Positions 6,991 to 21,975 of a DNA stretch of 64,000 bases are shown in pieces; position 1 is the first letter of the stretch, and every line of letters begins with the position of its first letter. A program made the translations under genes and the position numbers. Source of the DNA: Geodermatophilus sp. TF02-6 (GTDB lineage: Bacteria > Actinomycetota > Actinomycetes > Mycobacteriales > Geodermatophilaceae); contig NZ_QOHF01000013.1 in assembly GCF_003319115.1 (NCBI RefSeq), positions 1 through 64,000 on the forward strand, written 5' to 3'. The notes under the pieces are model-generated. The model was not told the origin of the DNA. It did no database searches and saw only the letters and a program-made list of their open reading frames with translations.

Positions 6991-6994
6991 CGGG

Positions 6995-7150
6995 TCACCA
7001 CCCGAAGCTCTCGACGTGGAAACGGTCAGCGGGGAGGCCGGCGGCCTCGGTCGTGCGGCGGACGTCCTCGGCCCACGGCTCGGGGCCGCAGGCGTAGACG
7101 GGGTGCACGGTCGTCGGCACGGGCAGCGACGGGAGCAACGTGGTGCTCAC
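6995..7150 (-). pseudogene. Ferredoxin/flavodoxin reductase C-terminal stub
   Basis: The minus-strand reading VYACGPEPWAEDVRRTTEAAGLPADRFHVESFGW, ending in TGA at 6995-6997, is the C-terminal NAD(P)-binding end of an FNR-type oxidoreductase (usual form: V.VCGP..W...V...A.AGVP..R.H.E.F.W). Nothing before about 7150 continues the protein in any frame, and no start or SD fits. It lies just upstream of FMN-binding and ApbE genes, where ferric-reductase-like oxidoreductases normally sit. This is a decayed operon head. Confidence 0.7.
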
Positions 7151-7443
7151 CGGTCACCGCCGGGGCGGGGAGCTCGGCCACGGGGACCGGCGGGGCGGGG
7201 CGTGGTCACGGTGCACCTCGGAGGGGTCGGCACGGCCGGGACGCGCGGGTCTCGACGGCGCGTCCCGGGTACGGCGGTCAGGTGGGCGGGCTCGGCACCT
7301 CGCTGTGCTCTCCCGGTGGACCCCCGCGGCGGGGGCCCGTCGCCGTCGCAGGACAACGGTCCCGCGGGAGGTGCCGCGTCGTCGTCCTCCGGGCGCAGGT
7401 CCCGCGGACTACTGCAGGTGCGGTAGGCGGCGCAGCGGGGCGG
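7151..7443. other. Gene-free stretch
   Basis: These 293 bases lie between the reductase stub and the response regulator stop. They contain GC-rich sequence with no convincing frame. They may hold scrambled remains of the lost oxidoreductase gene, but I cannot recognise any. Confidence 0.4.
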
Positions 7444-8130
7444 TCAGCCGCGCGGGTCGGCGTCCCCGGCCCGGACCAGGCCGGTCTGGTAGGCGATGAC
7501 CACCAGCTGGGCCCGGTCCCGCACGCCGAGCTTGGCCATGGCGCGGTTGACGTGCGTCTTGACCGTCAGCGGGGACAGGTAGAGGCGGCCGGCGACGTCC
7601 TGGTTGGACAGGCCGAGCGCGACCAGGGCGACGATCTCGCGCTCGCGGTCGGTCAGCTCGGCCAGCTGCTCGGGGACGACGTCGAGGCCGCCCTCCTGCG
7701 GCTGGCTGAGGAACCGCGCGATGAGGCTGCGGGTGGCACGGGGTGAGAGCAGCGCCTCGCCCCGCGCGACGACGCGGATCGCCTCGAGCAGGTCGTCGGG
7801 CTCGACGCTCTTGCCGAGGAACCCGCTGGCCCCCGAGCGCAGCGCGGCGAGCACGTACTCGTCGGCCTCGAAGGTGGTCAGCACGACGACCCGGACGTCG
7901 GCGAGCTCCGGCGCCTCGGTGATGGCGCGGGCGGCGGCCAGGCCGTCGGTGCCGGGCATGCGGATGTCCATGAGGACGACGTCCGGGCGCAGCGCGTGCG
8001 CCTGCCGGACCGCCTCGTCGCCGTCACCGGCCTCGCCCACGACCTCGAGCTCCGGGTCGCTGCCGATCAGCGCCGCGAACCCCGACCGGATGAGCACCTG
8101 GTCGTCGGCCAGGAGCACTCGCAGCGTCAC
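7444..8130 (-). CDS. NarL/LuxR-family response regulator
   Basis: This 228-aa protein has a receiver domain (residues 1-120) with the acidic pair LLADDQ, phospho-acceptor Asp in DVVLMDIRMPGTDG, Thr in VVVLTTFEADEY and Lys in GFLGKS. A LuxR-type HTH follows (LTDREREIVALVALGLSNQDVAGRLYLSPLTVKTHVNRAMAKL). It overlaps the sensor kinase gene by 4 bases and is its partner. Such pairs act as DNA-binding regulators of stress or envelope genes. The target is not visible. Confidence 0.95.
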   Translation of the reverse strand: MTLRVLLADDQVLIRSGFAALIGSDPELEVVGEAGDGDEAVRQAHALRPDVVLMDIRMPGTDGLAAARAITEAPELADVRVVVLTTFEADEYVLAALRSGASGFLGKSVEPDDLLEAIRVVARGEALLSPRATRSLIARFLSQPQEGGLDVVPEQLAELTDREREIVALVALGLSNQDVAGRLYLSPLTVKTHVNRAMAKLGVRDRAQLVVIAYQTGLVRAGDADPRG

Positions 8131-9362
8131 GACCCGCTCCTCGGGATCTCGGCGTGCACGACGAAGACCCCGTCCGTCGCCGCGGCGCAGAAGGTACCGC
8201 CCAGCGACGTCACCCGCTCGCGCATGCCCAGCAGGCCGTGGCCGCTGCCGGCGGCGCCCGCCGGCTCCGGCGCGACGGGGTTGCGCACCTCGACGGCGAC
8301 CGCGTCCGGCAGGTGCTCCACGGAGAGCTCGGCGCTGCCGGTGCCGTACTTCAGCGCGTTGGTCAGCGACTCCTGGACGACGCGGTAGGCGGCCAGGTCG
8401 GCGAGCTCGGGCAGCGGCCGCGGCTCGCCGGTGACCCGCAGGGCGGTCTGCAGGCCGGCGGCGCGCGTGGTCTGCACCAGCGCCGGCAGCTGGTCCAGGC
8501 CCGGCGCGGGCGGCGCGGTGGGGTTCTCGTCCTCGCCGGTGCGCAGCAGACCGAGCACGGTGGACATCTCGGCCAGCACCGTGCGGCTGGCCTCACGGAC
8601 CAGGCCCAGCGCGGTGCCGGCCTGCTCGGGCGAGCGGGTGAGCAGGTGCCGGGCGACGCCCGCCTGCACGTTGATCACCGAGATGTGGTGCGCGACGACG
8701 TCGTGCAGCTCGCGGGCGATGCGCAGCCGCTCGTCGGTGACCCGCCGGACGGCCTCCTCCTCGCGGGTCACCTCCGCCTGCCGGGCGCGGGCCTCCGCGG
8801 CCTCGACCGCGGCGCGCTGGCTGCGCACGGCCACGCCGACCGCGGCCGCCGCGACGCAGAAGCCGGGCAGCGAGAGCGCGTGATCACGGATCTCACCCTG
8901 CGCCAGGGCCAGCGCGACCAGGTCGACGGCGGCGGTGACCACGGCGATCAGCGCAGTCGTCGCCACCGAGCAGCGCTCCCCCACGGTGTAGAGGGCGACG
9001 ACGGAGACGACGAGGGCGGCGGTGGGCTGGCCACTGTGCAGCACCACCAGCACCGTGGCCGCCAGCCCGACCCCCCACACGAGCAGCGGGTTGCTGCGGC
9101 GGACCACCAGCGCGGCGGCGGCCACGGCCACCAGGGTGACGGTGACCGGCTCGAGCACGTCGCGGTCGGCGAACCGCCCACCGCCGCCGAAGCCGCCGCG
9201 CGGGCCGTCGTCGCCGAACAGTCCGGTCAGGGACGCCCCGAAGACGAGGACGGCGAGGCCGGCGTCGACCAGGCGCGGGTGCTGCGCCTGCCAGCGCGAC
9301 AGCGCCCCGAGCCCCTGCACGACGGGCACCCTAGGCGCTCGCGCCCGGGCCGCCGCGGTCAC
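8127..9362 (-). CDS. Sensor histidine kinase (HisKA_3 type)
   Basis: The 411-aa kinase starts at GTG 9362, which overlaps the DedA stop codon (GTGA). The N-terminal 180 residues hold about five membrane helices, then a coiled region (RAAVEAAEARARQAEVTREEEAVRRV). The dimerisation/phospho-acceptor helix follows, with His in ARELHDVVAHHISVINVQAGVARHLL. The HATPase domain has YRVVQESLTNALKYG (N box) and GSGHGLLGMRERV (G box). It is the cognate kinase of the response regulator just downstream. No large extracellular sensor domain is present; the membrane part likely senses. Confidence 0.93.
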   Translation of the reverse strand: MTAAARARAPRVPVVQGLGALSRWQAQHPRLVDAGLAVLVFGASLTGLFGDDGPRGGFGGGGRFADRDVLEPVTVTLVAVAAAALVVRRSNPLLVWGVGLAATVLVVLHSGQPTAALVVSVVALYTVGERCSVATTALIAVVTAAVDLVALALAQGEIRDHALSLPGFCVAAAAVGVAVRSQRAAVEAAEARARQAEVTREEEAVRRVTDERLRIARELHDVVAHHISVINVQAGVARHLLTRSPEQAGTALGLVREASRTVLAEMSTVLGLLRTGEDENPTAPPAPGLDQLPALVQTTRAAGLQTALRVTGEPRPLPELADLAAYRVVQESLTNALKYGTGSAELSVEHLPDAVAVEVRNPVAPEPAGAAGSGHGLLGMRERVTSLGGTFCAAATDGVFVVHAEIPRSGS

Positions 9363-9982
9363 CGCGCGGCTGCCAGCCGGCCGCGGCGGCGCACCCACAG
9401 CCGGGCTGCGGGCAGCACGACGGCGGCCGTGACCAGCAGCCCCGATGACGCCTCCGACACGACGGTGGAGACCTCGGTCCAGCGCCCGGCCAGTGTCTCG
9501 CCGAGCCACACCAGCCCGGCGTTCCAGCCCAGCGAGCCGAGCGCGGTCAGCGCGGTGAACCGGGCCAGCGGCATCCGGGCCAGGCCGGCCGGCACCGACA
9601 CCAGGACGCGCAGCCCCGGCACCAACCGGCCGAACAGGACGACGGCGTCCCCGCGCCGGGCCGCCCAGGCCTCGACCCGGGCCAGGTGCTGCTCGTCCAC
9701 GCGCAGCGGGCGGGGCAGGCGGGTCAGCAGCACCCGGCCACCGACCCGGCCGAGGGTGTGGAGCAGCCACGCGCCGACCACGGAGCCCGCGGTGGCGCCC
9801 AGCACGGCGGCCACGAAGGACAGCGACCCGGCGGCCACCTGCGTGCCGGCCAGCGGCAGCACCACCTCGGACGGCACGAAGGGGACGACGCCCTCGACGG
9901 CCATGACCGCGGCGAGGCCCGGCCAGCCGGCGCCGCCGACGAGCGCGGACACCGCCGTCGGCAGGCCGGCGAGCAGGCTCAC
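9359..9982 (-). CDS. DedA family membrane protein
   Basis: This 207-aa DedA/SNARE-associated protein has several membrane helices and the family hallmarks FVPSEVVLPLAG near the N-terminus and GRLVPGLRVLVSVPAGLARMPLARFTALTALGSLGWN in the middle. DedA proteins are thought to move lipid carriers or support membrane energetics. The start is GTG 9982 with only a weak SD. It is translationally coupled to the following histidine kinase gene, which suggests an envelope-stress link. Confidence 0.88.
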   Translation of the reverse strand: MSLLAGLPTAVSALVGGAGWPGLAAVMAVEGVVPFVPSEVVLPLAGTQVAAGSLSFVAAVLGATAGSVVGAWLLHTLGRVGGRVLLTRLPRPLRVDEQHLARVEAWAARRGDAVVLFGRLVPGLRVLVSVPAGLARMPLARFTALTALGSLGWNAGLVWLGETLAGRWTEVSTVVSEASSGLLVTAAVVLPAARLWVRRRGRLAAAR

Positions 9983-10307
9983 CGGGCACCCGCGGCGGCG
10001 CGGCGCGGACAGCGGTCGGAGGTGGTCGGGGGCACGCCACCACGGTGCCGGCCGGGCGGGCGTCCGTCGTCGTCCCGCTGCAGGCTCGGCGGGGTACCGC
10101 GGTCGCAGTACGCCCGTCGACCCGGCGCGGCGCCGGCGCCCGAGGGCTCGCGGCGTCCGCGGCCGCGTTCGACCTCGGTCGTCGGAGGCCCGACCGTCCG
10201 ACGGGACGTCCTGGCGAACCACCGCCGCGGTCGGTACCCCGCTCGGCGATCGAGGACCCTCCTGCACCCGCAGCGCTGCAGGACGACACGAGACCGTCCG
10301 GTTCACC
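9983..10307. other. Gene-free divergent spacer
   Basis: These roughly 325 bases lie between the divergent DedA and asparagine-synthetase-like genes. No small gene with an SD is recognisable. The only clear signal is the -10 box at the right end. Confidence 0.5.
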
Positions 10308-10319: not shown

Positions 10320-12995
10320 ATGGGCGGTGTTGCCGGTTGTTTCGGGCTGGTCGACGACCCGGGCCTGGTGCGGCGGATGAGGGCGGCTCAACGACACCGC
10401 GGGCCGGACGGCGAGGGCTGTTTCACCCACGGTCCGGTCGGCCTCGCCCACTCGCGGCTGGCCGTCCTCGACCGGGAGCACGGGGCCCAGCCGCTGACCG
10501 ACGCGAGTGGCCGTTACGTCATCTGCTGCGACGGCGCGGTCCACAACCACGGCGAGCTGCGGGACGAGCTGCGCGGCCTGGGCCACACCTTCCGCAGCGG
10601 CTGCGACACCGAGGTGCTGGTCGAGGCGTTCGCGGAGTGGCGTGAGGCTGCCTTCGACCGGTTCGACGGGATGTTCGGCCTGGCGGTCTACGACACGGTC
10701 GAACAGCGGCTGTTCCTCGCTCGTGACCACTTCGGCATCAAGCCGTTGTACGTGGCCTGTCTCCCGGACGGGACCGGCTGCCCACGGGTGCTGTTCGCCA
10801 GCGAGATCAAGGCCCTGCTGGGATCGGGGGAGGTCGAGCCGGTCGTGGACGAGCGGGTCCTCTACCGCTACCTGCGTTTCGGTGTGCACGACGACGGGGC
10901 CGACACGTTCTTCGCCGGCGTGCAGCGGGTGCTCCCCGGCGAGGTGCTGACGATCGACGACCGCGGCGTCCGGCGGCGCACCTCCGATCTACCGGCGCGG
11001 CTCGGTAGCCTGCCACGGCGGCGCTACACGTCCCGGGACGGCGACGAGTACGCCGAGCAGCTGCGCCGTTCGGTGCGCGAGCGCCTGATCAGCGACGTCC
11101 CGGTGGGCACCCGCCTGTCCGGGAGCCTGGGCTCGTCGACCGTCGTCCTGCTCGTCGACGAGTTGCTGCGGCAGGATCCGGCGGCCCGGGCGGTGGGCGC
11201 CCGACAGCACACCGTCAGCGCCGTCCTCCCCGGTTCACGCTCCGACGAGGAGCGCTGCGTCGAGGCGGTCCTCACCCGCACGGAGGGGCGCGCCGTCGGG
11301 CACACGGTGCGGCCCAGCGCCGACGCCTTCGCCGAGGACCTGCGCGACTTCGTGCTCACGCAGGAGGAGCCGACGCTCAGCACCGGTCCCTACGTGCAGT
11401 ACACGGTCGCGCAGGCGGCGGCCGAGCACGTGACCGTCCTGCTCGACGGCTCGGGTGCGGACGAGCTGCTGGCCGGCTCCCCGTCGTACCGCCTCGTCCA
11501 CCTGCGCCAGCTGCTCCGTCAGCGGCGCCTGCTCAGGCTCGGCGTCGAGGCGGCGCGGTCCCGCCGACAGCTCTGGCAGCTGCTGCGTCCGCGGCTGTCC
11601 GCCCGGCTGCGCGGGCGGCACCGCGTCGACCCGGTGACGCTCCTGGACGACGGCTTCCTGGCCGCGCACGCGTCCGAGCGCTTCTCCCCGGTGTCGGACG
11701 ACCTGCGCGCGCGGCTGCTGCAGGACCTGTTCGAGGCCAGCCTGCCGGCGCTGCTGCGCTGCTCCGACAAGAACACGGCGCGGTTCGGCCTCGAGGGGCG
11801 GACGCCCTTCCTCGACGTCGCCGCGGTCAGCCACCTCTTCTCCCTCGACGACGAGGCGGTCCTCGCCGACTCGGCGGGCAGCCGGGTGCTGCGCGACGCC
11901 ACCGACGACCTGCTGCCGGACGTCGTCCGCACCCGCCCCGACCGGACCGGCTCCACGACGCGTGAGGAGCAGTGGTTCGAGCGGCTCAAGACCCGGTTCT
12001 ACGAGGTGTTCTGCTCGGCGAGCTTCGGCCGCCGGCCGTACTTCGACCAGGCCGCCGTGCTCGCCGAGTTCGAGCGCTTCGTCCGAGGTCGAGGCGCCGC
12101 GGACACGGCGCTGTTCTGGCGACTGCTCAACACCGAGCTGTGGCTGCGCGCGTTCATCGACGAGGAGCCGGCCGATGTCGGCGCGGCCGTCGCGGAGGCC
12201 GAGGACAAGCCCGACCTGACGCCGAACGAGGGCAAGTCGCTCGACATCGAGGTCGGCGGCCACCGCCGTCGGCGCTATCCGGTGCAGACGCGGGCGATCA
12301 CGGCCGACGACGACCTGGCCGCCCTCGCCCGGGAGCGGGTGGCCGAGTTCTTCGCGCGCCTGCGGGAGTCCCCCGAACACCGGGAGTGGCTCGGCTGCGA
12401 GTGGTCGCTGGTCGTGTGCGAGAAGGTCGTCGCGATCACGCAGGGGCGCTCGTTCTTCGTCTGGGACATCGCACCCGGCAGGTGGGCGCGGTTCCTGAGC
12501 CGCCGCGTGGCGCACACGCCGCACGGGATCGGGCTGGGCAGTCCGGAGACGATGCAGCTGGCCATCCAGGAGGCCGGGCTGCCCCGCATCCTGTTCGCCG
12601 CGCTCGTCGGCGCCGCGGCCAAGGCGCTCGGACGCCACGGCGACTTCTACCGCCTGGCCGGCTCCCACGTCGCGGCGATCGACGGCCCCACCGAGTACTC
12701 GGTGTATCCCAGCAACGTGTCGGCCAAGCTCCCGCCCGCCCGGCCGGACGAGGTGGCGGCGCGGCTCGCCGAGGCCGTGCGGACCGTTCTGCCTGCCGAC
12801 GTCGCCAGCCGGTTCCGAGGAGTCGTGGTGATCGACGCCAACGACCTGGGCTGCCAGGTCCTGGGCAGCGACCGGCCCGACCAGGCGGCGAGGATGCCCG
12901 CGGTGTTCGCCGACAACCCGCTCGGTCAGGACCGGGAGCGCACACCCCTGTGCGTCGTCTTCGACGTGCCGGCCGGCGGACACTCCCGCTCATGA
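10320..12995 (+). CDS. Asparagine-synthetase-like protein fused to CofE-like domain, catalytic residues altered
   Basis: This 891-aa protein has three parts. Residues 1-200 match a class II glutamine amidotransferase, but it begins MGGVAGCF instead of MCGIAG, so the nucleophile Cys is Gly. Residues 230-625 match the asparagine synthetase domain; the PP-loop near residue 265 reads LSGSLGSS instead of LSGGLDSS, while DGSGADELL and CSDKNTARFGLEGRTPFLD are kept. Residues 630-891 match coenzyme F420-0:L-glutamate ligase-like proteins (NEGKSLDIEVGG, RRRYPVQTRAIT, CEKVVAITQGR, HTPHGIGLGSPETMQLAI, AAIDGPTEYSVYPSNVSAKL, DANDLGCQVLG, DNPLGQ). In relatives I believe these two parts are separate neighbouring genes. 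The product probably makes or modifies a peptide or amide, but the reaction is unknown. It stands alone on its strand. Confidence 0.85.
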   Translation: MGGVAGCFGLVDDPGLVRRMRAAQRHRGPDGEGCFTHGPVGLAHSRLAVLDREHGAQPLTDASGRYVICCDGAVHNHGELRDELRGLGHTFRSGCDTEVLVEAFAEWREAAFDRFDGMFGLAVYDTVEQRLFLARDHFGIKPLYVACLPDGTGCPRVLFASEIKALLGSGEVEPVVDERVLYRYLRFGVHDDGADTFFAGVQRVLPGEVLTIDDRGVRRRTSDLPARLGSLPRRRYTSRDGDEYAEQLRRSVRERLISDVPVGTRLSGSLGSSTVVLLVDELLRQDPAARAVGARQHTVSAVLPGSRSDEERCVEAVLTRTEGRAVGHTVRPSADAFAEDLRDFVLTQEEPTLSTGPYVQYTVAQAAAEHVTVLLDGSGADELLAGSPSYRLVHLRQLLRQRRLLRLGVEAARSRRQLWQLLRPRLSARLRGRHRVDPVTLLDDGFLAAHASERFSPVSDDLRARLLQDLFEASLPALLRCSDKNTARFGLEGRTPFLDVAAVSHLFSLDDEAVLADSAGSRVLRDATDDLLPDVVRTRPDRTGSTTREEQWFERLKTRFYEVFCSASFGRRPYFDQAAVLAEFERFVRGRGAADTALFWRLLNTELWLRAFIDEEPADVGAAVAEAEDKPDLTPNEGKSLDIEVGGHRRRRYPVQTRAITADDDLAALARERVAEFFARLRESPEHREWLGCEWSLVVCEKVVAITQGRSFFVWDIAPGRWARFLSRRVAHTPHGIGLGSPETMQLAIQEAGLPRILFAALVGAAAKALGRHGDFYRLAGSHVAAIDGPTEYSVYPSNVSAKLPPARPDEVAARLAEAVRTVLPADVASRFRGVVVIDANDLGCQVLGSDRPDQAARMPAVFADNPLGQDRERTPLCVVFDVPAGGHSRS

Positions 12996-13258: not shown

Positions 13259-14797
13259 TCAGGCCGCCGGAACGGCGGCCCGCGCGGTGCGGGTCGCGGC
13301 CAGCACGCAGACGTCGTCGTCCCGTTCGACGGCGGTGTGGCTGCCCTCGATGACGGTGTGGACGAGCGCACGTGCCCCTCCGCGGCGCCGGAGACCCCGG
13401 CGGGCGGCGGCGGTCAGCCGGGCCAGGCCCTCGTCGAGGCTCTCGCCCCGGCGCTCCACCAGCCCGTCGGTGTACAGCAGCACGGCGGCGCCGCCCGGGA
13501 GGGTCGTCCTCCCGGTGGGGTAGTCGAGGTCGGCCTCCACCCCGAGGATGAGCCCCTGTGCCCGGTCGAGCAGCGTCACCCCGCCGTCCGGTGCGCACAG
13601 CAGCCCGTAGGGGTGACCGGCGCTGGCGTACTCGAGGGCGCCGGTGGCCAGGTCGAGGTTGAGCACCGCGGCGCTGGCCATCGCCGGGCCCAGGGCGCCG
13701 ACGAGGAGCCGGTTGAGGCAGGTGAGCACCTGCCCGGGGCCGTGGCCGTCGGTGACGTAGGCCCGCATGGCGCCGCTGAGCCGGGCCATCAGCCCGACGG
13801 CGGCCGGCCCGTGGCCCACGACGTCGCCGATGGCCAGGACCAGCCGTCCGTCCGGAGCGGGGAAGACGTCGAACCAGTCGCCGCCGAGACGGATCTCCTC
13901 GGACGCGCCGAGGTAGCGGGCGGCGAGATCCAGCCCGGGTACCTCGGGCAGCGCGGGCAGCAGGCTGGTCTGCAGCTCCTGCAGCACCTGCCGCTGGCGG
14001 CCCAGGGTGGCCTTCAGCTCCTGTTCCAGGCGGCGGACCTCGGTGACGTCGCGGGCGACCGCGGCCACCCCGACGGTGGGCCCGTGCGGTACGCGGACGG
14101 GGAAGAACGACTCCAGCCAGGTGTGGCTCCGCCCGGGGTCGGCCGGGGTGGTGCCGACGATCTCCACGTCCCGCAGGGGCCGCCCGGTCTCCAGCACCCC
14201 CCGCAGCAGCGGCTCGGCCTCGTCCCGCAGGTCGGGCAGCAGGTCGAACACGGGTGTGCCCTCGTGGTCGGCGACGCTGAAGCCGTTCATGGCGGCCAGC
14301 TCCTGGTTGATGCGGACGAAGCGCAGCTCCGGGTCGATCAGCGCGAACCCGATCGGCGCGTCCTGCAGCAGGGTGGACACGATCGCCGCCTCCGACTGGA
14401 CGAGGCGGCGCAGGCGCTCCTCCCGGCTGAGGTCGATGACGACGGCGACCCACTCGTAGGGCTCCCAGCTGACCGCCGACACGGCCGCGAGCACCGGCAC
14501 CCGGCTGCCGTCGGGCCGCAGGAAGTCCTTCTGCAGCACGGCCGACCCGGTGCGGCGGACGTCGTCCACCGCCGCCGCGTCGCGCTCGGCGTGGTCGGCC
14601 GGGGTGATCGCCGGCCAGGCGATGCCCTCCTCCAGCTCGCCGCGGCTGCGGCCGAGGATGCGCAGCAGTTCGTCGTTGGCCTCCGTGACGACCTCGTCGG
14701 TGCCCGACGCCATCCCCACCGCGTCGCCGGCGAACAGCGCCCGCAGCCGTTCGGCCTGCCGGACGACCTCGACCGGCCCAGGGCCCCCGTCTCCCAC
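13259..14797 (-). CDS. PAS-PAS-PP2C (SpoIIE/RsbU-type) phosphatase
   Basis: This 512-aa sensor phosphatase has two PAS domains (about residues 20-125 and 135-260: VVTEANDELLRILGRSRGEL and GFALIDPELRFVRINQELAAMNG) and a short coiled linker (LEQELKATLGRQRQVLQELQ). The SpoIIE domain follows with the metal-binding motifs GGDWFDVFPAPDGRLVLAIGDVVGHG, LYTDGLVERR and ERDDDVCVLA. Such proteins dephosphorylate anti-anti-sigma factors in general stress signalling. No anti-sigma partner lies nearby. The start is GTG 14797. Confidence 0.92.
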   Translation of the reverse strand: MGDGGPGPVEVVRQAERLRALFAGDAVGMASGTDEVVTEANDELLRILGRSRGELEEGIAWPAITPADHAERDAAAVDDVRRTGSAVLQKDFLRPDGSRVPVLAAVSAVSWEPYEWVAVVIDLSREERLRRLVQSEAAIVSTLLQDAPIGFALIDPELRFVRINQELAAMNGFSVADHEGTPVFDLLPDLRDEAEPLLRGVLETGRPLRDVEIVGTTPADPGRSHTWLESFFPVRVPHGPTVGVAAVARDVTEVRRLEQELKATLGRQRQVLQELQTSLLPALPEVPGLDLAARYLGASEEIRLGGDWFDVFPAPDGRLVLAIGDVVGHGPAAVGLMARLSGAMRAYVTDGHGPGQVLTCLNRLLVGALGPAMASAAVLNLDLATGALEYASAGHPYGLLCAPDGGVTLLDRAQGLILGVEADLDYPTGRTTLPGGAAVLLYTDGLVERRGESLDEGLARLTAAARRGLRRRGGARALVHTVIEGSHTAVERDDDVCVLAATRTARAAVPAA

Positions 14798-14994
14798 GGC
14801 GGGGGAGTCTGCCAGAGGGCCACGACGCTCCCGGCGCGCGCGGAGCGCTGCAGCGCGGACCGCCCGGCGACCGGGAGGGACGCCGTCCCGGGAGGCCGCT
14901 TCGGCTCAAGCCGGGACCGGTCGGTGCCGATGACCCCCGACGACGGAGGAGCGCGCCCGCCGGGGTCGGGTGGGCGTCGGCGGGAGGGGAGGCC

Positions 14995-16434
14995 GTGGTC
15001 AGCGCAGCGGCCGTGGTCACCGCAGCGGCCGGGACGCGCCCGGCGGACCCGCACGCCGCCCGGCCCGAGCAGCGGCGACTGGTGCTCCTGTCCTACGTCT
15101 GCGGCTTCGCCGTGGTGGCCGCGCTGTACGGGCTCGACCGCACGCTCGGCGTCGTCGCCGGCCTGCTGAACGTCGTCTTCGGCGTCTACTTCTGCCGGCA
15201 CCTGGCGTTCGCGGTGGCCGCCGCCCGCTGGGCGGAGAAGGACCTCCTGGCCGCCGACGTCGGCCTGGGGACCTACACCCCGTCGGTCGCCGTCCTCGTC
15301 GGCTGCAAGAACGAGGAGCTCGTCGTCGACGGGATGGTCACCGCGCTCCTCTCGCTGGACTACCCGGCCGACCGGCTCACCCTCGTCGTCGTCGACGACG
15401 GGTCGGACGACGGCACCGGCGCCCGGCTGGACGGGTGGGCCGCCCGCGACCCCCGGCTGCGGGTGCTGCACCGCCCGCCGGGCTCCGGCGGCGGGAAGTC
15501 CGGCGCCCTCAACGACGCCCTCGACCTGCTGGACGCCGAGATCGCCGTGGTGTTCGACGCCGACCACGAGCCGGAGCCGACGGCGCTGCGCCGTCTCGTC
15601 CGCCACTTCCGCGACCCGGTGGTCGGCGCGGTGATGGGCCGCTGCGTCATCCGCAACGGCCGCGACTCGTCGATGGCCGGCACCGTCTTCGTCGACTTCC
15701 TCTCCGGCTACCTGGTCAACGAGTACGGCCGGCAGGCCCTGTTCGAGCTGCCCGCCTACGGCGGGGCCAACTGCGCGGTGCGGATGTCGACCCTGCGGGC
15801 CCTGGGCGGCTGGAACCCGCACACGGTCACCGAGGACACCGACCTGACCCTGCGCGTGCTGCTGGCCGGCCAGCGGGTCCGCTACGACCTCTCCGCCGTC
15901 GACTTCGAGGAGGCGGTGGTCAGCGCCCCGCGCTTCTGGACGCAGCGGTACCGGTGGGCCCGGGGCCACCAGAAGTGCTTCCGGGACCACTGGCGTCCGC
16001 TGATGCGCTCGCCGCACCTGTCGCCGGTGGAGAAGGTCGAGACGACGCTGTTCCTGCTCGTCTACCACGTGCCCCTGCTCAGCGGCATCGGGCTGCTGCT
16101 CACCGGGCTGCGGGCCGTCGGGATCGGCGACCTGCCGGTCGTCGGGCTGCTGCCCCTGTCGATGCTGCTGTTCGTCGGCCCGCTGGCCGAGCTGTCCGTG
16201 GGGCTGCTCATCGGGCGGGTGGAGCGGCGCGCCGCCTGGCGGCTGCTCGGCTTCCTCCCGGCCTTCGCCCTGTCCATCTGGATCACCACGCGCGCCTACG
16301 TCGACGGCATGCTCGGCCGCCCCTACACCTGGGTGAAGACGTCCCGGTCGGGGGCCACGTCCACCGTCCGGGTCGACCCTCCGCCGCCCGCGGTCGGGGC
16401 CGCCGCGCCGCCGTCGTCGAGGACCGGCGCCTGA
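14995..16434 (+). CDS. Membrane GT2 glycosyltransferase of exosortase cluster
   Basis: This 479-aa processive-type family 2 glycosyltransferase has two helices before the catalytic domain (residues 20-65). The GT-A domain has VVVDDGSDDG near 132, DAD near 188, TEDTDL near 278 and QRYRW near 316. Three or four C-terminal membrane helices follow. The D, D, D, QxxRW set is that of cellulose/hyaluronan/PGA-synthase-like enzymes, so it probably polymerises and exports a sugar chain. The start is GTG 14995 with SD GGGAGGGGA 4 bases upstream. Its stop overlaps the start of the exosortase-like gene. Confidence 0.92.
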   Translation: MVSAAAVVTAAAGTRPADPHAARPEQRRLVLLSYVCGFAVVAALYGLDRTLGVVAGLLNVVFGVYFCRHLAFAVAAARWAEKDLLAADVGLGTYTPSVAVLVGCKNEELVVDGMVTALLSLDYPADRLTLVVVDDGSDDGTGARLDGWAARDPRLRVLHRPPGSGGGKSGALNDALDLLDAEIAVVFDADHEPEPTALRRLVRHFRDPVVGAVMGRCVIRNGRDSSMAGTVFVDFLSGYLVNEYGRQALFELPAYGGANCAVRMSTLRALGGWNPHTVTEDTDLTLRVLLAGQRVRYDLSAVDFEEAVVSAPRFWTQRYRWARGHQKCFRDHWRPLMRSPHLSPVEKVETTLFLLVYHVPLLSGIGLLLTGLRAVGIGDLPVVGLLPLSMLLFVGPLAELSVGLLIGRVERRAAWRLLGFLPAFALSIWITTRAYVDGMLGRPYTWVKTSRSGATSTVRVDPPPPAVGAAAPPSSRTGA

Positions 16435-17615
16435 TGGCCCGGGCCGCCGGTGATCCCGGGGCGGGGGGCCGGCGCCGCTACCGACGCCCCGGCAGCCGCC
16501 GACGTCTCCTGGTGGTGCTGGGCGACCTGGCGCTGGCGGCGCTGATCTGCTGGGTCGGCTTCCGCCACGGCGCCGCCGTCCTGCAGGTGCACGAGGCCCG
16601 CTGGGTGGTCGCCTCGTTGCGGCTGCTCGGGGTGGACTCGGCGTCGGACGCCCTGCCGCGCCACATCATGGTGTTCCGGGACGACGGGGGGATGATCCTC
16701 GCCGGGGTCACCGAGTCCTGCTCGTCGATCCTGTCGGTCCTCGGGCTGACCGCGCTCACCGTCGTCGTCCTGCGGGGCCGGCGCCAGCACGCGGTGGCCG
16801 GGCTGGTGGTCGCGGTCGCCGCGCTGCTGGTGCTCAACCACCTCCGGCTGGCCGCCTCCACCGTCGCCGGTCTCCTCTGGGGGGACGCGGCGCTGGTCCT
16901 CTTCCACGACTGGGTGGGCACCGTCTGGAACCTCGCCGCCACCCTCGGCGGCTTCCTGCTCATGGTCTGCACCACCCTGCCCACCGCCCAGCGCGCCGAG
17001 CAGGACGTCGCCGGCCGGCACACGGCGCGCCGTCCCGACAGCTGGGCGCGCCCGGGTCTGGGCTACCGGCTGCCGGTGGACGACGCCCGCCCGGCCTCCC
17101 GTCGGTGGACCCCGACCGGCCTGGTGCACCGCCACCTGCTGCCGCGGCGGGCCTCGCGGTGGCTGGGTGCGCGCCGGGAGGCCGGGCGCATCGACTACCG
17201 GATCGGGTACCTGCCCGCGGCCGAGCGGGCCGAGCGGGTCCGCGCGCTGGCGGCCGACGGGCTCGGGGCGCACGCGGCGTCGCTGGTGGCGGTGGCGACC
17301 TACGACGACGACCCGGCCGTCCTCGACGTGCTGGCCGAGGCGGTCGCCGCCCGGCAGTGGGAGCCGGTCACCGGATCCCGCGTGGCGGCCCTGCGGCTGT
17401 GGGCGCGCGGCTGGCTGCTGCCGCACCCCGGACGGGACGGGGCCCCGCCCGCCGACGACACGCTCCCCGTGCTGGCGGCCCGCCCGGCCCCCCCGGTGCC
17501 CGCCGTCCCGCGGGCCCGGGCCGGCGACGGCCTCCCATCCCCGGCCGCCGCCACCCGACCGCGCAGCTTCGCCCGTTCCCCGCTCCCGCTCCCCGCGACC
17601 CAGGACGACCGATGA
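16434..17615 (+). CDS. Exosortase/archaeosortase family protein with long tail
   Basis: This 393-aa protein has an N-terminal membrane region (residues 20-185) with the family's three conserved residues: Cys in GVTESCSSILSVL (about 95), Arg in LNHLRLAAS (about 138) and His in LFHDWVGTVWN (about 158). Exosortases and archaeosortases are membrane transpeptidases that recognise a C-terminal sorting signal. The soluble tail of about 200 residues (IDYRIGYLPAAERAERVRALAADG and on, Pro-rich at the end) is not a known domain to me. ATGA overlaps link it to the glycosyltransferase before it and the ATP-grasp gene after it. The candidate substrate is the secreted protein at 20697. The subtype is not identified. 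Confidence 0.8.
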   Translation: MARAAGDPGAGGRRRYRRPGSRRRLLVVLGDLALAALICWVGFRHGAAVLQVHEARWVVASLRLLGVDSASDALPRHIMVFRDDGGMILAGVTESCSSILSVLGLTALTVVVLRGRRQHAVAGLVVAVAALLVLNHLRLAASTVAGLLWGDAALVLFHDWVGTVWNLAATLGGFLLMVCTTLPTAQRAEQDVAGRHTARRPDSWARPGLGYRLPVDDARPASRRWTPTGLVHRHLLPRRASRWLGARREAGRIDYRIGYLPAAERAERVRALAADGLGAHAASLVAVATYDDDPAVLDVLAEAVAARQWEPVTGSRVAALRLWARGWLLPHPGRDGAPPADDTLPVLAARPAPPVPAVPRARAGDGLPSPAAATRPRSFARSPLPLPATQDDR

Positions 17616-18682
17616 CCTCCTCCCTGCCCCAGCCCCGTTCGGCGCCGGCCGCCCCGGCGCTCCCCCCGGCGGCGGACCCGGACGGCCGCGCCCCGGCCGT
17701 GCTGGTCACCGGAGCCGGCGGCCCGGCCGGCGTCGCGGTGGTCCGCCGCCTGGTCGCCCTCGGCCACCGGGTGGTCGCCGCCGACGCCGACGCGGCGGCC
17801 GCCGGGGGAGCGTTCGCCTCCGTCGCGGTGACCGTGCCGCGCGGTGACTCCCCCCGCTTCGTCGACGCGCTGGTCGGGATCGCTCCCGCCTGCGGCGTCG
17901 ACGCCCTGGTCAGCACGGTCGCCGAGGAGCTGCCGCGGCTGACCGCCGGCGCCGACCGGCTGGCCGCGGCCGGCGTCGCCACCTGGCTGCCCACCCCGAC
18001 CGCCGTGGACCTGTGCTGCGACAAGGCGGCCTTCGCCCGGCGGATGGGAGCCGCCGGTGTGCCGCACCCGGCGACCGCGACCGGCGCCGACGACGTCGCC
18101 GGCGTCCCCGGCCCGTGGGTGGTCAAGCCGCGGACCGGGCGGGGCAGCCGCGGCGTGCGGCTGCTCGACGACCCGGCCGAGGTCGCCGCCGCGCTCCGCG
18201 CAGACGCCGGGCTCGTCGCCCAGACCCGGCTCGAGGGCCGGGAGTTCACCGCCGACGCGCTGGTCGACCGGGACGGCGAGCTGCGCACCGCCGTCCCCCG
18301 GTGGCGGGAGGAGACCCGGGCCGGGATCTCGGTGAAGGGCCGGACGTTCGCCTCCGAGGCGGTGACCGACGTCGTCGCGCGGGCCCTGGCCGCGGTCGGG
18401 CTCACCGGGTCGGCCAACGTGCAGGGCTTCGTCGCCGACGACGGCGAGGCGACCGTCGTGGAGATCAACCCGCGGTTCTCCGGCGGGCTGCCGCTGACCC
18501 TCGCGGCCGGCGCCGACGTGGTCGGCGCCTACCTCGCCGGCGTCCGGGAGCCGGGCGTGCCGCTGCCGTACCTGTGGTTCCGGCCCGGCGTCTCGATGAG
18601 CCGCTACTTCGCCGAGACCTACGCCAGCGACGACGGCAGCCCGGTCGTCGACCCCTGCGCGCCGGTGGCGGTGACCGCGTGA
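17612..18682 (+). CDS. ATP-grasp enzyme
   Basis: This 356-aa protein has an N-terminal pre-ATP-grasp fold (VLVTGAGGPAGVAVVRRLVALGHRVVAAD) and an ATP-grasp core (KAAFARRMGAAGVPHPAT, WVVKPRTGRGSRGVRLL, VAQTRLEGREFTADALVDRDG, VEINPRFSGGLPLTLAAG). The layout is that of carbamoyl-phosphate-synthase-like ligases such as PylC/CarB-type proteins found in polysaccharide clusters, often annotated as carbamoyl or amino acid ligases. It probably decorates a sugar or lipid intermediate. The start ATG 17612 overlaps the exosortase stop; its own stop overlaps the epimerase start. The substrate is unknown. Confidence 0.85.
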   Translation: MTSSLPQPRSAPAAPALPPAADPDGRAPAVLVTGAGGPAGVAVVRRLVALGHRVVAADADAAAAGGAFASVAVTVPRGDSPRFVDALVGIAPACGVDALVSTVAEELPRLTAGADRLAAAGVATWLPTPTAVDLCCDKAAFARRMGAAGVPHPATATGADDVAGVPGPWVVKPRTGRGSRGVRLLDDPAEVAAALRADAGLVAQTRLEGREFTADALVDRDGELRTAVPRWREETRAGISVKGRTFASEAVTDVVARALAAVGLTGSANVQGFVADDGEATVVEINPRFSGGLPLTLAAGADVVGAYLAGVREPGVPLPYLWFRPGVSMSRYFAETYASDDGSPVVDPCAPVAVTA

Positions 18683-19860
18683 CCGCGCGGGCGAGGTCAC
18701 GGCACGGGCGGAGCACCCGCAGCCGGCACGTCCTCGTGCCGTTCGGCACCCGCCCCGAGGTCGTCAAGCTCGCCCCGGTCGTCGCCGCCCTGCAGGCCGC
18801 GGGCCACCGGGTGAGCGTCGTCGACACCGGCCAGCACACCGACCCCGCGCTGAGCTCGCAGCTGCAGACCGCGCTCGGGCTGACCCCCGACTCCCGCTTC
18901 TGCCTGCCGGCCGCCCCGGCCGAGCGGACCGGCGCTCTGCACGCCGACGCGGCCCGCGCGGTCGCCGGCTGCGCGCCCGACCTGGTGCTGGCGCTCGGCG
19001 ACACCACCACCGTGCCCGCCTACGCCCTGGCCGCCCGCGCCGCCGGCGTGCCCTTCGCCCACCTCGAGGCCGGGTTGCGCAGCCTCAACCCGCGCAGCGT
19101 GGAGGAGGTCAACCGGCGGGTCGCCGCGGCCGCCGCGCAGCTGCACCTCGCGCCCACGGAGCGGGCCGCGGCCTTCCTCGCCGCCGAGGGCGTCGACGCG
19201 GAGCGGGTGTTCGTCGTCGGCAACCCGGTCGTCGACACCCTCGTCGCCCGCGGGGTCCGGCGGGTGCCGCTCGCCGAGCGCCGCGGCGTCCTGGTCACCG
19301 CGCACCGGCCCACCAACGTCGACGACCCCGTCCGCCTGGCCCGGCTGGTCGGCGTGGTGCGGGCGCTCGCCGAGCAGGTCGGCCCGGTGACCTTCCCGGT
19401 GCACCCGCGCACCGCGGCCCGCCTCGCCGCGGCCGGGCTCACCGGCGCCCTCGAGCACCCGGGCGTCACGCTCACCGGCCCGGTGGGGTACGACGCGCTG
19501 CTCGCGGCGCTGGCCTCGGCCCGCCTGGCGGTCACCGACTCGGGCGGCATCCAGGAGGAGGCCGCCTACCTGGGGGTGCCGGTCGTGGTGCTGCGCGGCT
19601 CGACGCCGCGCTGGGAGGGCGTCGAGGCCGGGACGACGACCCTGGCCGGGCTGGCCGACGACCGCGCGGCCGCCGCCGTCCTGGCCGCCGCTGCCGGGCA
19701 CACCAGCGCCGAGGGCCAGGAGCGGGCCGCGGCGGCGCCGTGCCCGTACGGGGACGGGACGACGGGTCCGCAGGTGGCCGCCGTCCTGGCCGATCCGCGG
19801 ACCGATGCCCTGCTCGCGCTCGACGAGCCCGACTTCACCGACGGGCGGCTGCCCTGGTGA
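18679..19860 (+). CDS. wecB: UDP-N-acetylglucosamine 2-epimerase (non-hydrolysing)
   Basis: This 393-aa enzyme interconverts UDP-GlcNAc and UDP-ManNAc. The start of the fold reads VPFGTRPEVVKLAPVVAAL. The active-site segments are kept: ALGDTTTVPAYALAARAAGVPFAHLEAGLRS, VEEVNRR, TAHRPTNVDD and the UDP-binding TDSGGIQEEAAYLGVPVVVLR. The GTG start overlaps the ATP-grasp stop and its stop overlaps the HAD gene start. It likely supplies ManNAc for the glycan made by the cluster. Confidence 0.9.
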   Translation: MTARARSRHGRSTRSRHVLVPFGTRPEVVKLAPVVAALQAAGHRVSVVDTGQHTDPALSSQLQTALGLTPDSRFCLPAAPAERTGALHADAARAVAGCAPDLVLALGDTTTVPAYALAARAAGVPFAHLEAGLRSLNPRSVEEVNRRVAAAAAQLHLAPTERAAAFLAAEGVDAERVFVVGNPVVDTLVARGVRRVPLAERRGVLVTAHRPTNVDDPVRLARLVGVVRALAEQVGPVTFPVHPRTAARLAAAGLTGALEHPGVTLTGPVGYDALLAALASARLAVTDSGGIQEEAAYLGVPVVVLRGSTPRWEGVEAGTTTLAGLADDRAAAAVLAAAAGHTSAEGQERAAAAPCPYGDGTTGPQVAAVLADPRTDALLALDEPDFTDGRLPW

Positions 19861-20582
19861 CCGGCTGGCGAGGGTCGCCGCCGCTGGGCGTGGTGGTCGA
19901 CCTCGACGACACGCTCTACCCGCAAGCCGACTACCTGGCCTCCGCCGCCGCGGCGGTGGGGGTCGCCGCGCACACCGCCGGGCTGGACGGCGCCGCGGTG
20001 CACGCCGCCCTGCGGCGCGAGCTGGCCGCCGGGTCCGACGCCGGCGGCACCGTCGACCGGGCCCTGCTCGCCGCGGGCGTGCCGGCCGCGGCCCTGCCCC
20101 GGTACGTCCCGGCGCTGGTGGCGGCGTTCACCGCGCACACCCCGTCCCGGTTGACCCCCCATCCCGGGGTGGCCGAGGCGCTGCGCGCGCTGGCCGCCGC
20201 CGCGCCGCTGGCCTGCCTGACCGACGGCAACCCGGTCATCCAGGCGGCCAAGCTGGCCGCCACCGGCCTGCAGCCGCTGCTGCCGGTCGTCGTCGTCACC
20301 GACGCGCTCGGTGGGCGGGCCGTCCGCAAGCCGCACCCGCTGGGGCTGCTCGCCGCCGCCGCGCGGCTGGGCGTGCCGCCCGACCGGCTGCTGGTCGTCG
20401 GCGACCGGCCCGGCAAGGACGTCGCCGTGGCCGCGGCCGTCGGAGCGCGCGCGGTCCGCGTCCGGCAGGGGGAGTACGCCACCGCCCCCGACGACCCGCG
20501 CACCTGGGCGGTCGTGCACTCCTTCCCCGCCGCGGCGCAGCTGGCCCTCGAGGTCCTGGGCCTGGCCGCCGCCCCGGCCTGA
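19857..20582 (+). CDS. HAD-superfamily phosphatase
   Basis: This 241-aa HAD hydrolase has motif I VVDLDDTLYP with an inserted cap domain, motif II LTDGN, motif III Lys in RKPHP and motif IV VGDRPGKDV. It is similar in size and layout to pyrimidine or sugar-phosphate phosphatases. Within the cluster it probably acts on a sugar phosphate. The GTG start overlaps the epimerase stop by 4 bases. Confidence 0.85.
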   Translation: MTGWRGSPPLGVVVDLDDTLYPQADYLASAAAAVGVAAHTAGLDGAAVHAALRRELAAGSDAGGTVDRALLAAGVPAAALPRYVPALVAAFTAHTPSRLTPHPGVAEALRALAAAAPLACLTDGNPVIQAAKLAATGLQPLLPVVVVTDALGGRAVRKPHPLGLLAAAARLGVPPDRLLVVGDRPGKDVAVAAAVGARAVRVRQGEYATAPDDPRTWAVVHSFPAAAQLALEVLGLAAAPA

Positions 20583-20696
20583 GGGGTCCTCACCCCTCCG
20601 GGTGGTCTCCGGTCCCCGGGGCTCCAGCCGGCGGCCCGGCGCGCCGATGGGGCCTCGACGGGCGGGCCGGCCGCCCCGGACCCGAGGACGCACGCC

Positions 20697-21281
20697 ATGG
20701 ACGGTCCCAGCAGGTCATCGAGGGCACGGCGCGTCCGCGCGCGTGTCGCCTCCGTCGCACTGGCCGCGGTCGTCGCCGTCGTGGGGTTGGTCGCCGCACC
20801 GGGCACGGCCTCGGCCGCGAGCAAGACGGTCACGCCGACCCTGGACTGCCTCCGCGAGAACGGCGACGGGACCTACACCGCGATCCTGGGCTACACCAAC
20901 ACCTCGAAGAACCCGGTCACCATCCCGGTGGGCTCGTGGAACCAGGTGCAGCCGGCCCGGTTCGACGGCCCCCAGCCGACCGTCTTCCAGCCGGGGACCA
21001 AGCGCGGTGCCTACACCGTGACGCTCACGCAGGACGAGTACATGGGCGGGCCCTCGTGGTACCTCGGCGGCACCTTCGTCTTCTTCGGCTGGTCCTGGAC
21101 GCACGACGGGAAGGCGCCGACCTGCCCGCCCTCGACGGAGCTGCCCGAGGAGGGCAACGGGACCGGGCCGCTCATCGCCCTGGCCGTCGCCGGGGTGGTC
21201 GGTGCTCTCGTCGTCCACCGCACCCGCCGCGGCGCGCAGGCCGCCGGCCGGGACACCGGGGCGGGCCGCGGCGATGCGTAG
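20697..21281 (+). CDS. Secreted protein with exosortase-like C-terminal sorting region
   Basis: This 194-aa protein has a Sec signal (Arg-rich start, VASVALAAVVAVVGLVAAPG, cleavage near ASAAS). A mature domain of about 110 residues follows, with two Cys (TLDCLRENGDG and PTCPP) and several aromatic residues. The C-terminus reads LPEEGNGTGP, then a hydrophobic helix (LIALAVAGVVGALVV), then HRTRR. That is the three-part layout (short motif, helix, basic end) recognised by exosortases or sortases. It sits between the HAD gene and the PIG-L gene in the exosortase cluster, so I infer it is the anchored substrate. The mature-domain function is unknown. Confidence 0.7.
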   Translation: MDGPSRSSRARRVRARVASVALAAVVAVVGLVAAPGTASAASKTVTPTLDCLRENGDGTYTAILGYTNTSKNPVTIPVGSWNQVQPARFDGPQPTVFQPGTKRGAYTVTLTQDEYMGGPSWYLGGTFVFFGWSWTHDGKAPTCPPSTELPEEGNGTGPLIALAVAGVVGALVVHRTRRGAQAAGRDTGAGRGDA

Positions 21282-21975
21282 GGTCCTCGCGGTCGGGGCG
21301 CACCCCGACGACATCGAGCTGGGCTGCGGTGCCACCCTCCTGGCCCACTCCGCCGCCGGCGACGCCGTCACCGTGCTGGTCGTGACCGGCGGCGAGAACG
21401 GCCCCGGTGACGACGCCGCGGTCGTCGGCCGCCGCGCCGAGCAGGAGCAGGCCGCCCGGACGCTGGGCGCGCGGCTGCTGTGGGGAGGGCTGCGCGACTG
21501 TGCGGTCGTCCCCGACGCCGCCACCGTCGCCGTGGTCGAGCGGGCCCTGCGGGAGACGGGCGCGGAGGTCGTGTACGTGCACGCCCCGGACGACAGCCAC
21601 CAGGACCACCGGGCCGTCGCCGCCGCGACCCTGTCGGCCGCGCGCCGGCTCTCGCGGGTCCTGCACTACCAGAGCCCGTCCACGCTGACCTTCAGCCCGA
21701 CGGTGTACGTCGACGTCACCGCCTACCTCTCCGGCAAGCTCGCCGCGCTCGGCGCGCACGCCTCCCAGGTGGAGCTGTCGGCCATGGTGGAGCCGGACGC
21801 CGTCGTCGCCTCCGCCCGGCACTGGGGCGCGCAGGCCCGGATCGGCTACGCCGAGGCGTTCGCGCCGACCCGCATGGTGCTCGACCTGGTGCCCACCCCC
21901 CGCCAGCCCGCGGTCGACGTCCCCGAGGCCCACCGGCTGACCCCGTCGGTGCTCCTGGCGGCACCGCCGCGCTGA
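21274..21975 (+). CDS. PIG-L family deacetylase
   Basis: This 233-aa zinc-dependent N-acetylglucosaminyl deacetylase-type protein has AVGAHPDDIELGCGATLLAHSAAGD (zinc site HPDD) near the N-terminus and the second zinc His in DDSHQDHRAV. The family removes acetyl groups from GlcNAc in lipids, mycothiol or glycans. ATG 21274 overlaps the end of the secreted protein gene by 8 bases. In this cluster a role in deacetylating the GlcNAc/ManNAc glycan is plausible. Confidence 0.88.
   Translation: MRRVLAVGAHPDDIELGCGATLLAHSAAGDAVTVLVVTGGENGPGDDAAVVGRRAEQEQAARTLGARLLWGGLRDCAVVPDAATVAVVERALRETGAEVVYVHAPDDSHQDHRAVAAATLSAARRLSRVLHYQSPSTLTFSPTVYVDVTAYLSGKLAALGAHASQVELSAMVEPDAVVASARHWGAQARIGYAEAFAPTRMVLDLVPTPRQPAVDVPEAHRLTPSVLLAAPPR

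Follow-up and report, generated by a model that had tools for sequence, protein, structure and literature searches.

Introduction

In the PEP-CTERM/exosortase A systems of Gram-negative bacteria, a tripartite C-terminal signal is accompanied by linked glycan genes, and the compound joined to the cut protein has been described as unidentified (PMC7468200). Two other systems offer models of how such an acceptor could be made. In the type IX secretion system (T9SS), VimE is proposed to deacetylate a sugar of the Wbp pathway and VimA to place serine or glycine on the exposed amine; a swap of VimA altered the amino acid, and exosortase systems are speculated also to make an amino-acid-modified sugar (PMC7468200). 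In Haloferax, processing by archaeosortase A (ArtA) requires PssA and PssD, the proposed makers of its amine acceptor lipid, and homologues of PssA/PssD adjoin artA in several Methanosarcina (PMC7157517). Here, we report on a seven-gene cluster at 14995-21975 of a 64,000-nucleotide stretch of the soil actinobacterium Geodermatophilus sp. TF02-6 (contig NZ_QOHF01000013.1, positions 1 to 64,000; hereafter the window), which encodes a family 2 glycosyltransferase (GT2), an exosortase, an ATP-grasp ligase, a WecB epimerase, a HAD phosphatase, a secreted protein and a PIG-L deacetylase. The original prediction, a model's reading of the letters, had seen in it an actinobacterial exosortase-glycan cluster with a built-in substrate.

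We propose, with a probability of about 0.55, that the cluster is a dedicated exosortase system with essentially one substrate, in which the partner enzymes build the sugar acceptor. By analogy, the operon may work like PEP-CTERM or ArtA sorting. It shares with PEP-CTERM/exosortase A the tripartite signal and the linked glycan genes, but differs in having one substrate family per genome, a WecB/ATP-grasp/PIG-L set, an actinobacterial host and a different motif. The resemblance to the PorU/Wbp/Vim system of T9SS would be one of working principle, a deacetylase and an amino-acid transfer yielding a linking sugar, whereas the PorU sortase and the export route are unrelated and VimA is N-acetyltransferase/FemAB-like rather than an ATP-grasp enzyme. 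As with archaeosortase A, the putative acceptor-making enzymes are clustered with the sortase, although the proposed acceptor of ArtA is an ethanolamine lipid and not a sugar. To judge from model names, XrtG and XrtP systems likewise pair an exosortase with a dedicated GT2 (TIGR03111 and NF053846); the window GT2 fails the XrtP-associated model NF053846 (93 bits, cut-off 520), and together with the GT2s of six other cassettes it scores 76-101 bits on NF053846 and 41-76 bits on TIGR03111 (cut-off 364). Among the matches listed, we found no paper on an actinobacterial exosortase/ATP-grasp operon in the open-access literature, and none there joining exosortase and Geodermatophilus; exosortase and ATP-grasp were met together only in a reference list.

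Results

The exosortase and its family

The protein of the second gene scores 36.7 bits on the superfamily signature model TIGR04178 (cut-off 23), and this model is above cut-off in 20 of the 26 genomes of the genus, the source genome included, with one match each. Its scores lie under the cut-offs of the named subfamilies XrtS (NF033767; 26.1 bits, cut-off 145), XrtR (NF012138; 18.9, cut-off 150), ArtF (18.0, cut-off 150), ArtB (15.3, cut-off 150), ArtC (12.0, cut-off 100) and XrtM (11.7, cut-off 125), and no other named exosortase subfamily of NCBIfam matched it at E≤1. Membership of a named subfamily was rejected on these scores; judged by its sequence, the protein is a member of the exosortase/archaeosortase superfamily outside every named subfamily scored. 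The closest subfamilies by score, XrtS and XrtR, share the short exosortase core with its C-R-H set: at E≤0.01, the XrtS model recognises all 12 core sequences compared and the XrtR model 10 of them. Their models, 155 and 160 positions long, are without the helical module of the window exosortase described below, and XrtS is above its cut-off in none of the 396 sampled genomes of the phylum. The hidden Markov model search proposed along with the original prediction was thus passed for TIGR04178, though failed for Pfam Exosortase_EpsH and for the named subfamilies.

The predicted C-R-H set of the membrane protein was located: C96, R138 and H158 are invariant in 31/31 aligned exosortases, fused proteins having been trimmed to the exosortase portion, and all three residues are also retained in the remote exosortases inspected. 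In the AlphaFold2 model (mean predicted local distance difference test score, pLDDT, 74.7), the core comprises four helices within residues ~20-181 (20-64, 99-112, 117-149 and 151-181), with strands at 70-91 between the first two.

The secreted protein, its tail and its co-inheritance with the exosortase

Within the genus, the secreted family is found in the same 20 of 26 genomes as the exosortase, with one to four matches each, some of them weak or fragmentary, and PIG-L at ≥74% identity is found in the same 20. In the family Geodermatophilaceae, 37 of 112 genomes have the exosortase and 36 have the secreted family, the two sets differing only by one genome, G458 (84% complete). In the 96 good genomes (≥90% complete, ≤5% contaminated), exosortase and secreted protein agree without exception, both present in 36 and both absent in 60, though shared ancestry means that these are not 96 independent events. 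Their presence is patchy (7 of 12 genera), and close ATP-grasp homologues (≥68% identity) occur in the same 36 family genomes.

The secreted protein has a signal peptide and a two-cysteine beta domain. It carries the tail CPPSTELPEEGNGTG-TM-RTRR (21123-21248), where TM is a transmembrane segment, and so has the three parts of a tripartite sorting signal: a short motif, a C-terminal helix and an arginine cluster. The tail consensus in most Geodermatophilaceae rows is C-P-x-S-T-x-L-P-x-x-G-N-G; a Pro-Glu-Pro motif is absent from the tail, in which the motif is [LM]P, followed in most of these rows by GNG. C51, C143 and P150 are invariant in 29/29 rows. In the AlphaFold2 model (29 sequences; mean pLDDT 80.1), a signal helix is followed by a mostly beta domain (45-136), which a low-confidence linker joins to the C-terminal helix (156-188). 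The strands of the domain, which has no name, may be read as a beta-sandwich. Nothing in NCBIfam or Pfam scored above cut-off for the secreted protein, and Foldseek against the PDB returned no match at E≤0.001 for either its model or that of the exosortase.

A 42-residue tail profile was made from 23 of 25 cut tails, with two Klenkia tails omitted; Acidimicrobiia tails were not cut. It was run against the 26 genus genomes, where the best 150 of 251-352 candidates per genome were scored, so that weaker tails could be missed. All 31 matches at E<1e-7 are secreted-family loci in the 20 exosortase genomes, and the next best match has E 0.002. Paralogues of the secreted protein away from the operon retain the tail in 5/5 loci inspected (L109-L113). 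Because the matches are limited to the secreted family, the exosortase seems to be devoted to a single protein family rather than to dozens of unrelated proteins. The scan for the same C-terminal signal that had been suggested at the outset thus returned the secreted family only, at this threshold, and, with the exact co-occurrence, this supports the idea of a built-in substrate.

Conservation of the gene set

A scan of GTDB species genomes recovered 24 loci in Geodermatophilus, Modestobacter, Blastococcus, Klenkia, an unclassified Geodermatophilaceae and metagenome-assembled genomes (MAGs), the last being three Acidimicrobiaceae and one Actinomycetes. Together with the congeners, and with duplicates removed, these gave 30 distinct relatives' loci, and all seven genes have a tblastn match in 28 of them, so that the predicted retention of the cluster in relatives held. 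A contig end truncates L056, one of the two exceptions; the other, L057, is weighed in the Discussion. In L061 the HAD match is partial at a contig end. Gene order varies: PIG-L precedes GT2 in three Blastococcus loci, and both the secreted-protein gene and PIG-L precede GT2 in L060-L063. Since the order is reshuffled while the set is retained, selection appears to act on the gene set rather than the genes being passive neighbours. Clustering of open reading frames (ORFs) from 37 stretches, the window included, found no family in more than 10 loci beyond the cassette and its frame shadows, with ORF prediction being noisy at this GC content. To the extent that sequence comparison can tell, the conservation of the cluster exceeds chance.

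A helical module shared by the exosortase and the ATP-grasp ligase

The soluble tail of roughly 200 residues foreseen on the exosortase has about that length, with ~210 residues following the last predicted transmembrane helix, but its nature needs correction: it is a helical module plus disorder, and the module is also fused to or placed beside the ATP-grasp ligase in relatives. In the AlphaFold2 model, residues 227-328 form a mostly confident helical domain, and the linker and the proline-rich end are mostly disordered. The domain may be called HEAT-like from its helix pattern, a reading without a database match. Its markers are RQWEP and LRLWAR.

In Geodermatophilaceae the module is C-terminal on the exosortase. 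In all four Acidimicrobiaceae/Actinomycetes MAG loci (L060-L063), exosortase, module and ATP-grasp form a single ORF of 799-812 residues, in which the module is, by eye, seemingly present twice. In L107 the module is joined to the start of ATP-grasp, and in the other eight of nine cassettes from other families it is a separate ORF with an N-terminal hydrophobic segment of its own; in one of these, L175, module and ATP-grasp lie in the same frame with one stop between them. These arrangements are Rosetta-stone evidence, from which we infer that the ATP-grasp ligase works at the exosortase. Furthermore, in three Geodermatophilus genomes (L025/L046, L026/L042 and L029) exosortase and ATP-grasp lie in one open frame of 726-733 codons; an internal ATG could restart translation there, so the fusion is unproven in these frames.

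Operon layout and enzymes

As predicted, the seven genes lie on one strand and the first five are joined by short overlaps (Table 1). The GT2/exosortase junction is a 1-base overlap, read as TGATG at 16432-16436, and the next three junctions are 4-base overlaps. A gap of 114 bases separates the HAD gene from the secreted-protein gene, which overlaps PIG-L by 8 bases provided that the latter starts at ATG 21274; the upstream GTG 21202 is the longest-ORF start only. The start codon of GT2 is uncertain. The overlaps of 1, 4, 4, 4 and 8 bases, with the single gap, suggest that the seven genes are one operon.

Table 1. Genes of the cluster in the window.
Feature	Position	Strand	Evidence
Membrane GT2 glycosyltransferase, processive-synthase type (DDG, DAD, TED, QRYRW)	14995..16434	+	Pfam GT2 models above cut-off
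Exosortase	16434..17615	+	TIGR04178; invariant C96/R138/H158
ATP-grasp ligase, PRK12767/PylC-like group	17612..18682	+	Pfam ATP-grasp_3, 64.4 bits (cut-off 23.2)
WecB, non-hydrolysing UDP-GlcNAc 2-epimerase	18679..19860	+	TIGR00236 equivalog, 236.7 bits (cut-off 210.15)
HAD-family phosphatase	19857..20582	+	Pfam Hydrolase, 65.7 bits (cut-off 26.4)
Secreted substrate candidate	20697..21281	+	AlphaFold2 model, alignment, co-occurrence with exosortase
PIG-L/LmbE-type N-deacetylase	21274..21975	+	Pfam PIG-L, 83.7 bits (cut-off 28.2)

Every enzyme of the operon was assigned to a family by NCBIfam and Pfam. Residues conserved at ≥95% are those of the DDG/DAD/TED/QRYRW set in GT2 (40 rows), which we take to mark processive synthases; GTRPE, EAGLRS and TAHR in WecB (37 rows); D15/D17, K158 and D183/D188 in HAD (36 rows); HPDD and HQDH in PIG-L (36 rows); and E284 and N286 in ATP-grasp (39 rows, one misread). 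These conserved residues of the five enzymes are presumably catalytic, and from its sequences the operon looks to encode active enzymes. The best NCBIfam match of GT2 is PgaC, at 113 bits and below the cut-off of 422. ATP-grasp has one sequence relative in the PDB, 2pn1, and the PDB relatives of PIG-L include BshB-type (N-acetylglucosaminyl-malate) and diacetylchitobiose deacetylases. PIG-L has no visible signal peptide, so its deacetylation should be cytosolic.

A distant ATP-grasp relative (41-44% identity) is found in 16 genomes of one genus, one of which also has a close copy. In both loci inspected from these 16 genomes, L183 (G422:C89), 6836-8906, and L184 (G441:C1), 6863-9101, the distant ATP-grasp directly follows a response-regulator/PIG-L fusion, and no exosortase is present. 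That an ATP-grasp enzyme adjoins a receiver-PIG-L protein outside the cassette hints that deacetylase and ligase act in sequence. The surroundings of L183 and L184 hold ORFs that by eye resemble signal peptidase and TasA-type proteins.

A tRNA-Ser (CGA) gene lies at 14713-14804 (-), 190 bases upstream of the GT2 gene. A tRNA-island reading was rejected: tRNA genes, of differing types, occur in 7 of the 37 fetched stretches of relatives, with a tmRNA in an eighth. A defence-system reading was likewise rejected, PADLOC, run on four of the seven proteins, giving nothing at E≤0.01, and Rfam gave nothing at gathering thresholds. Two kilobases upstream of the operon, on the same strand, is a large asparagine synthetase-like gene with a C-terminal extension (10320-12995). 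It is not kept beside the cassette, with one partial match in 43 relatives' loci, duplicates included; asparagine synthetase-type genes are present in PEP-CTERM clusters (PMC7468200).

Cassettes and candidate substrates in other families

The original prediction regarded such a cluster as unusual in a high-GC actinobacterium. It is no single-strain oddity, given the 37 of 112 family genomes with the exosortase and the cassettes in other families. The exosortase profile matches 3 of the 396 sampled phylum genomes, the source genome counted, and a core profile matches 10 of the 296 genomes in the class of G255, 8 of these 10 having the cassette whole or largely so. The contig of L172 stops inside WecB, and G347 (L178) has a weak exosortase match without the cassette. 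L107 (G214) has GT2, exosortase, module-ATP-grasp and PIG-L, its contig stopping shortly after the ATP-grasp gene. L182 (G407:C5:551000-570500) has, at 7003-9984, an actinobacterial exosortase of a second kind, which scores 64.5 bits on XrtS, under the cut-off, and is accompanied by a GT2 and by a secreted protein whose C-terminal end consists of a hydrophobic stretch and RKRRQR.

Candidate substrates were sought in L107, L108, L170-L176 and L177 by looking for ORFs that begin with a signal-like segment and have, towards the C-terminus, a hydrophobic stretch followed by basic residues; this rule is our own and may carry selection bias. Among the ORFs so found, we discarded four that were exosortases, three that had additional hydrophobic segments and one that ran antisense to the L175 candidate. 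No candidate was found in L177, and each of the nine cassettes of other families yielded one that adjoins PIG-L or GT2 and has the hydrophobic C-terminal stretch and basic residues. The candidate is divergent in L108, lies ~670 bases upstream of PIG-L in L175, and has a borderline internal hydrophobic segment in L107. In six of the nine, [VM]P directly precedes the hydrophobic stretch, and in L108 AP does so; the tails read EVPVGTWGALGL (L172), QVPVGTWGALGL (L174), TPVPVGGIAGG (L175), HPVPVSGAVVP (L171), AMPITGHPLSL (L176), VVPVGTIGVLG (L107) and APLAGSIGAM (L108). Similarity by tblastn to the window secreted protein was found only in L170 and L173, and by that test the other seven candidates are distinct proteins. 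For dissimilar proteins to carry a similar tail next to the same sortase is what one would predict of a sorting signal.

Discussion

The general interpretation offered in the original prediction is supported, in that the exosortase signature is present and relatives retain the genes as a group. From the gene set, the conserved motif residues, the co-inheritance, the conserved tail and the fusions established above, we infer the cleavage, the transpeptidation, the acceptor chemistry and the order of steps as follows. After export, the secreted protein would stay in the membrane through its C-terminal helix. The exosortase very probably acts on it: C96, with R138 and H158, would cleave it at the [LMV]P motif, immediately outside the membrane, and pass the freshly formed C-terminus to an acceptor produced by the operon's own enzymes. 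That the operon makes this acceptor is itself probable, though less so. By analogy with VimE/VimA and PssA/PssD, the amine acceptor would be the work of PIG-L and ATP-grasp, and the sugar and its carrier that of WecB, HAD and GT2. WecB would provide a UDP-HexNAc donor, and PIG-L would strip the N-acetyl group in the cytosol. The helical module would tether ATP-grasp to the exosortase, by docking or by fusion, and ATP-grasp would re-acylate the amine, an amino acid being the simplest choice. HAD would take off a phosphate, and GT2 would build or extrude the glycan bearing the acceptor amine. Both the ManNAc-type nature of the sugar and the notion of anchoring are suggested by gene content.

We hold the more specific forms of this proposal only tentatively. 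The acceptor might be an aminoacyl-amino-sugar specifically. The exosortase and ATP-grasp could conceivably form one machine, in which an amino sugar charged with an aminoacyl group at the inner face becomes, at the outer face, the acceptor for the cut C-terminus. Such a machine would perhaps represent an ATP-driven pathway to a 'linking sugar' made on the sortase itself and independent of the T9SS Wbp/Vim pathway.

Several observations weigh against a dedicated exosortase system with its own acceptor pathway. The exosortase scores below the gathering cut-off of Pfam Exosortase_EpsH (PF09721; 17.0 against 25.7 bits), and its match is split over two frames in G437 (C1:363673-364828) and G458 (C22:8081-9134), by sequencing error or decay. 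In L057 (= G017) the secreted-protein gene is elsewhere in the genome, unlinked. Two Klenkia tails deviate from the LPxxGNG form, as do those of L170 and L173 (TLARWGP and TLAGWGP), which lack the proline just before the hydrophobic stretch; PIG-L was not found in these last two loci, the contig of L173 ending nearby. G529 (L177) has an exosortase match but no ATP-grasp, WecB or HAD in the 9 kb downstream, with a contig end on the other side, and the L182 stretch gave no ATP-grasp, WecB or PIG-L match. As read from these sequences, the partner set is not universal around actinobacterial exosortases. Enzymes similar to the ATP-grasp ligase join many things, and the GT2 product may be a free polymer unrelated to the secreted protein.

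The last point is the core of the best-surviving alternative, in which the exosortase does no more than release the secreted protein by proteolysis, or anchor it to a lipid, and the glycan genes produce a surface polysaccharide of their own, with which the protein later associates non-covalently. The processive-synthase motifs of GT2 and its best score on PgaC are as for a free exopolysaccharide, and the conjugated compound of PEP-CTERM systems is called unidentified (PMC7468200). However, the exosortase/ATP-grasp fusion and the shared module put at least one biosynthetic step on the sortase, which would be needless for a free polymer, and we regard this alternative as unlikely. Distinctly less probable is an operon that adds a small glyco-amino-acid to the secreted protein or the cell wall, with the exosortase-like protein serving as a scaffold or transporter without peptidase activity. 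While the heavy biosynthetic content of the operon and the fusion to ATP-grasp would suit such a role, the residues C, R and H are invariant in the 31 aligned sequences and persist in the remote members inspected, and a secreted protein with a transmembrane-plus-basic tail adjoins in 28/30 loci and in 9/9 of other families. Least probable of all is that an ordinary sortase handles the secreted protein, or that it is a plain membrane protein, its LP motif being LPxTG-like by coincidence: LPxxGNG looks like a sortase motif by eye and each of the 26 congeners has 1 to 8 sortase-family (PF04203) matches, but precisely because sortases occur in all 26 this is disfavoured, the secreted protein being confined to the 20 with the exosortase, the exact pattern of the pair recurring in the 96 good family genomes, and the tails of other families reading VPVG, MPIT and so on.

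A dedicated exosortase system of this kind brings together, in one compact operon, a sortase, a single substrate family and a few enzymes that are candidates for making the acceptor, and the gene fusions indicate which of these enzymes acts directly with the sortase. The relatives that carry the operon include named strains. The question of the acceptor thereby becomes testable, and the operon could help to identify what exosortases attach proteins to.

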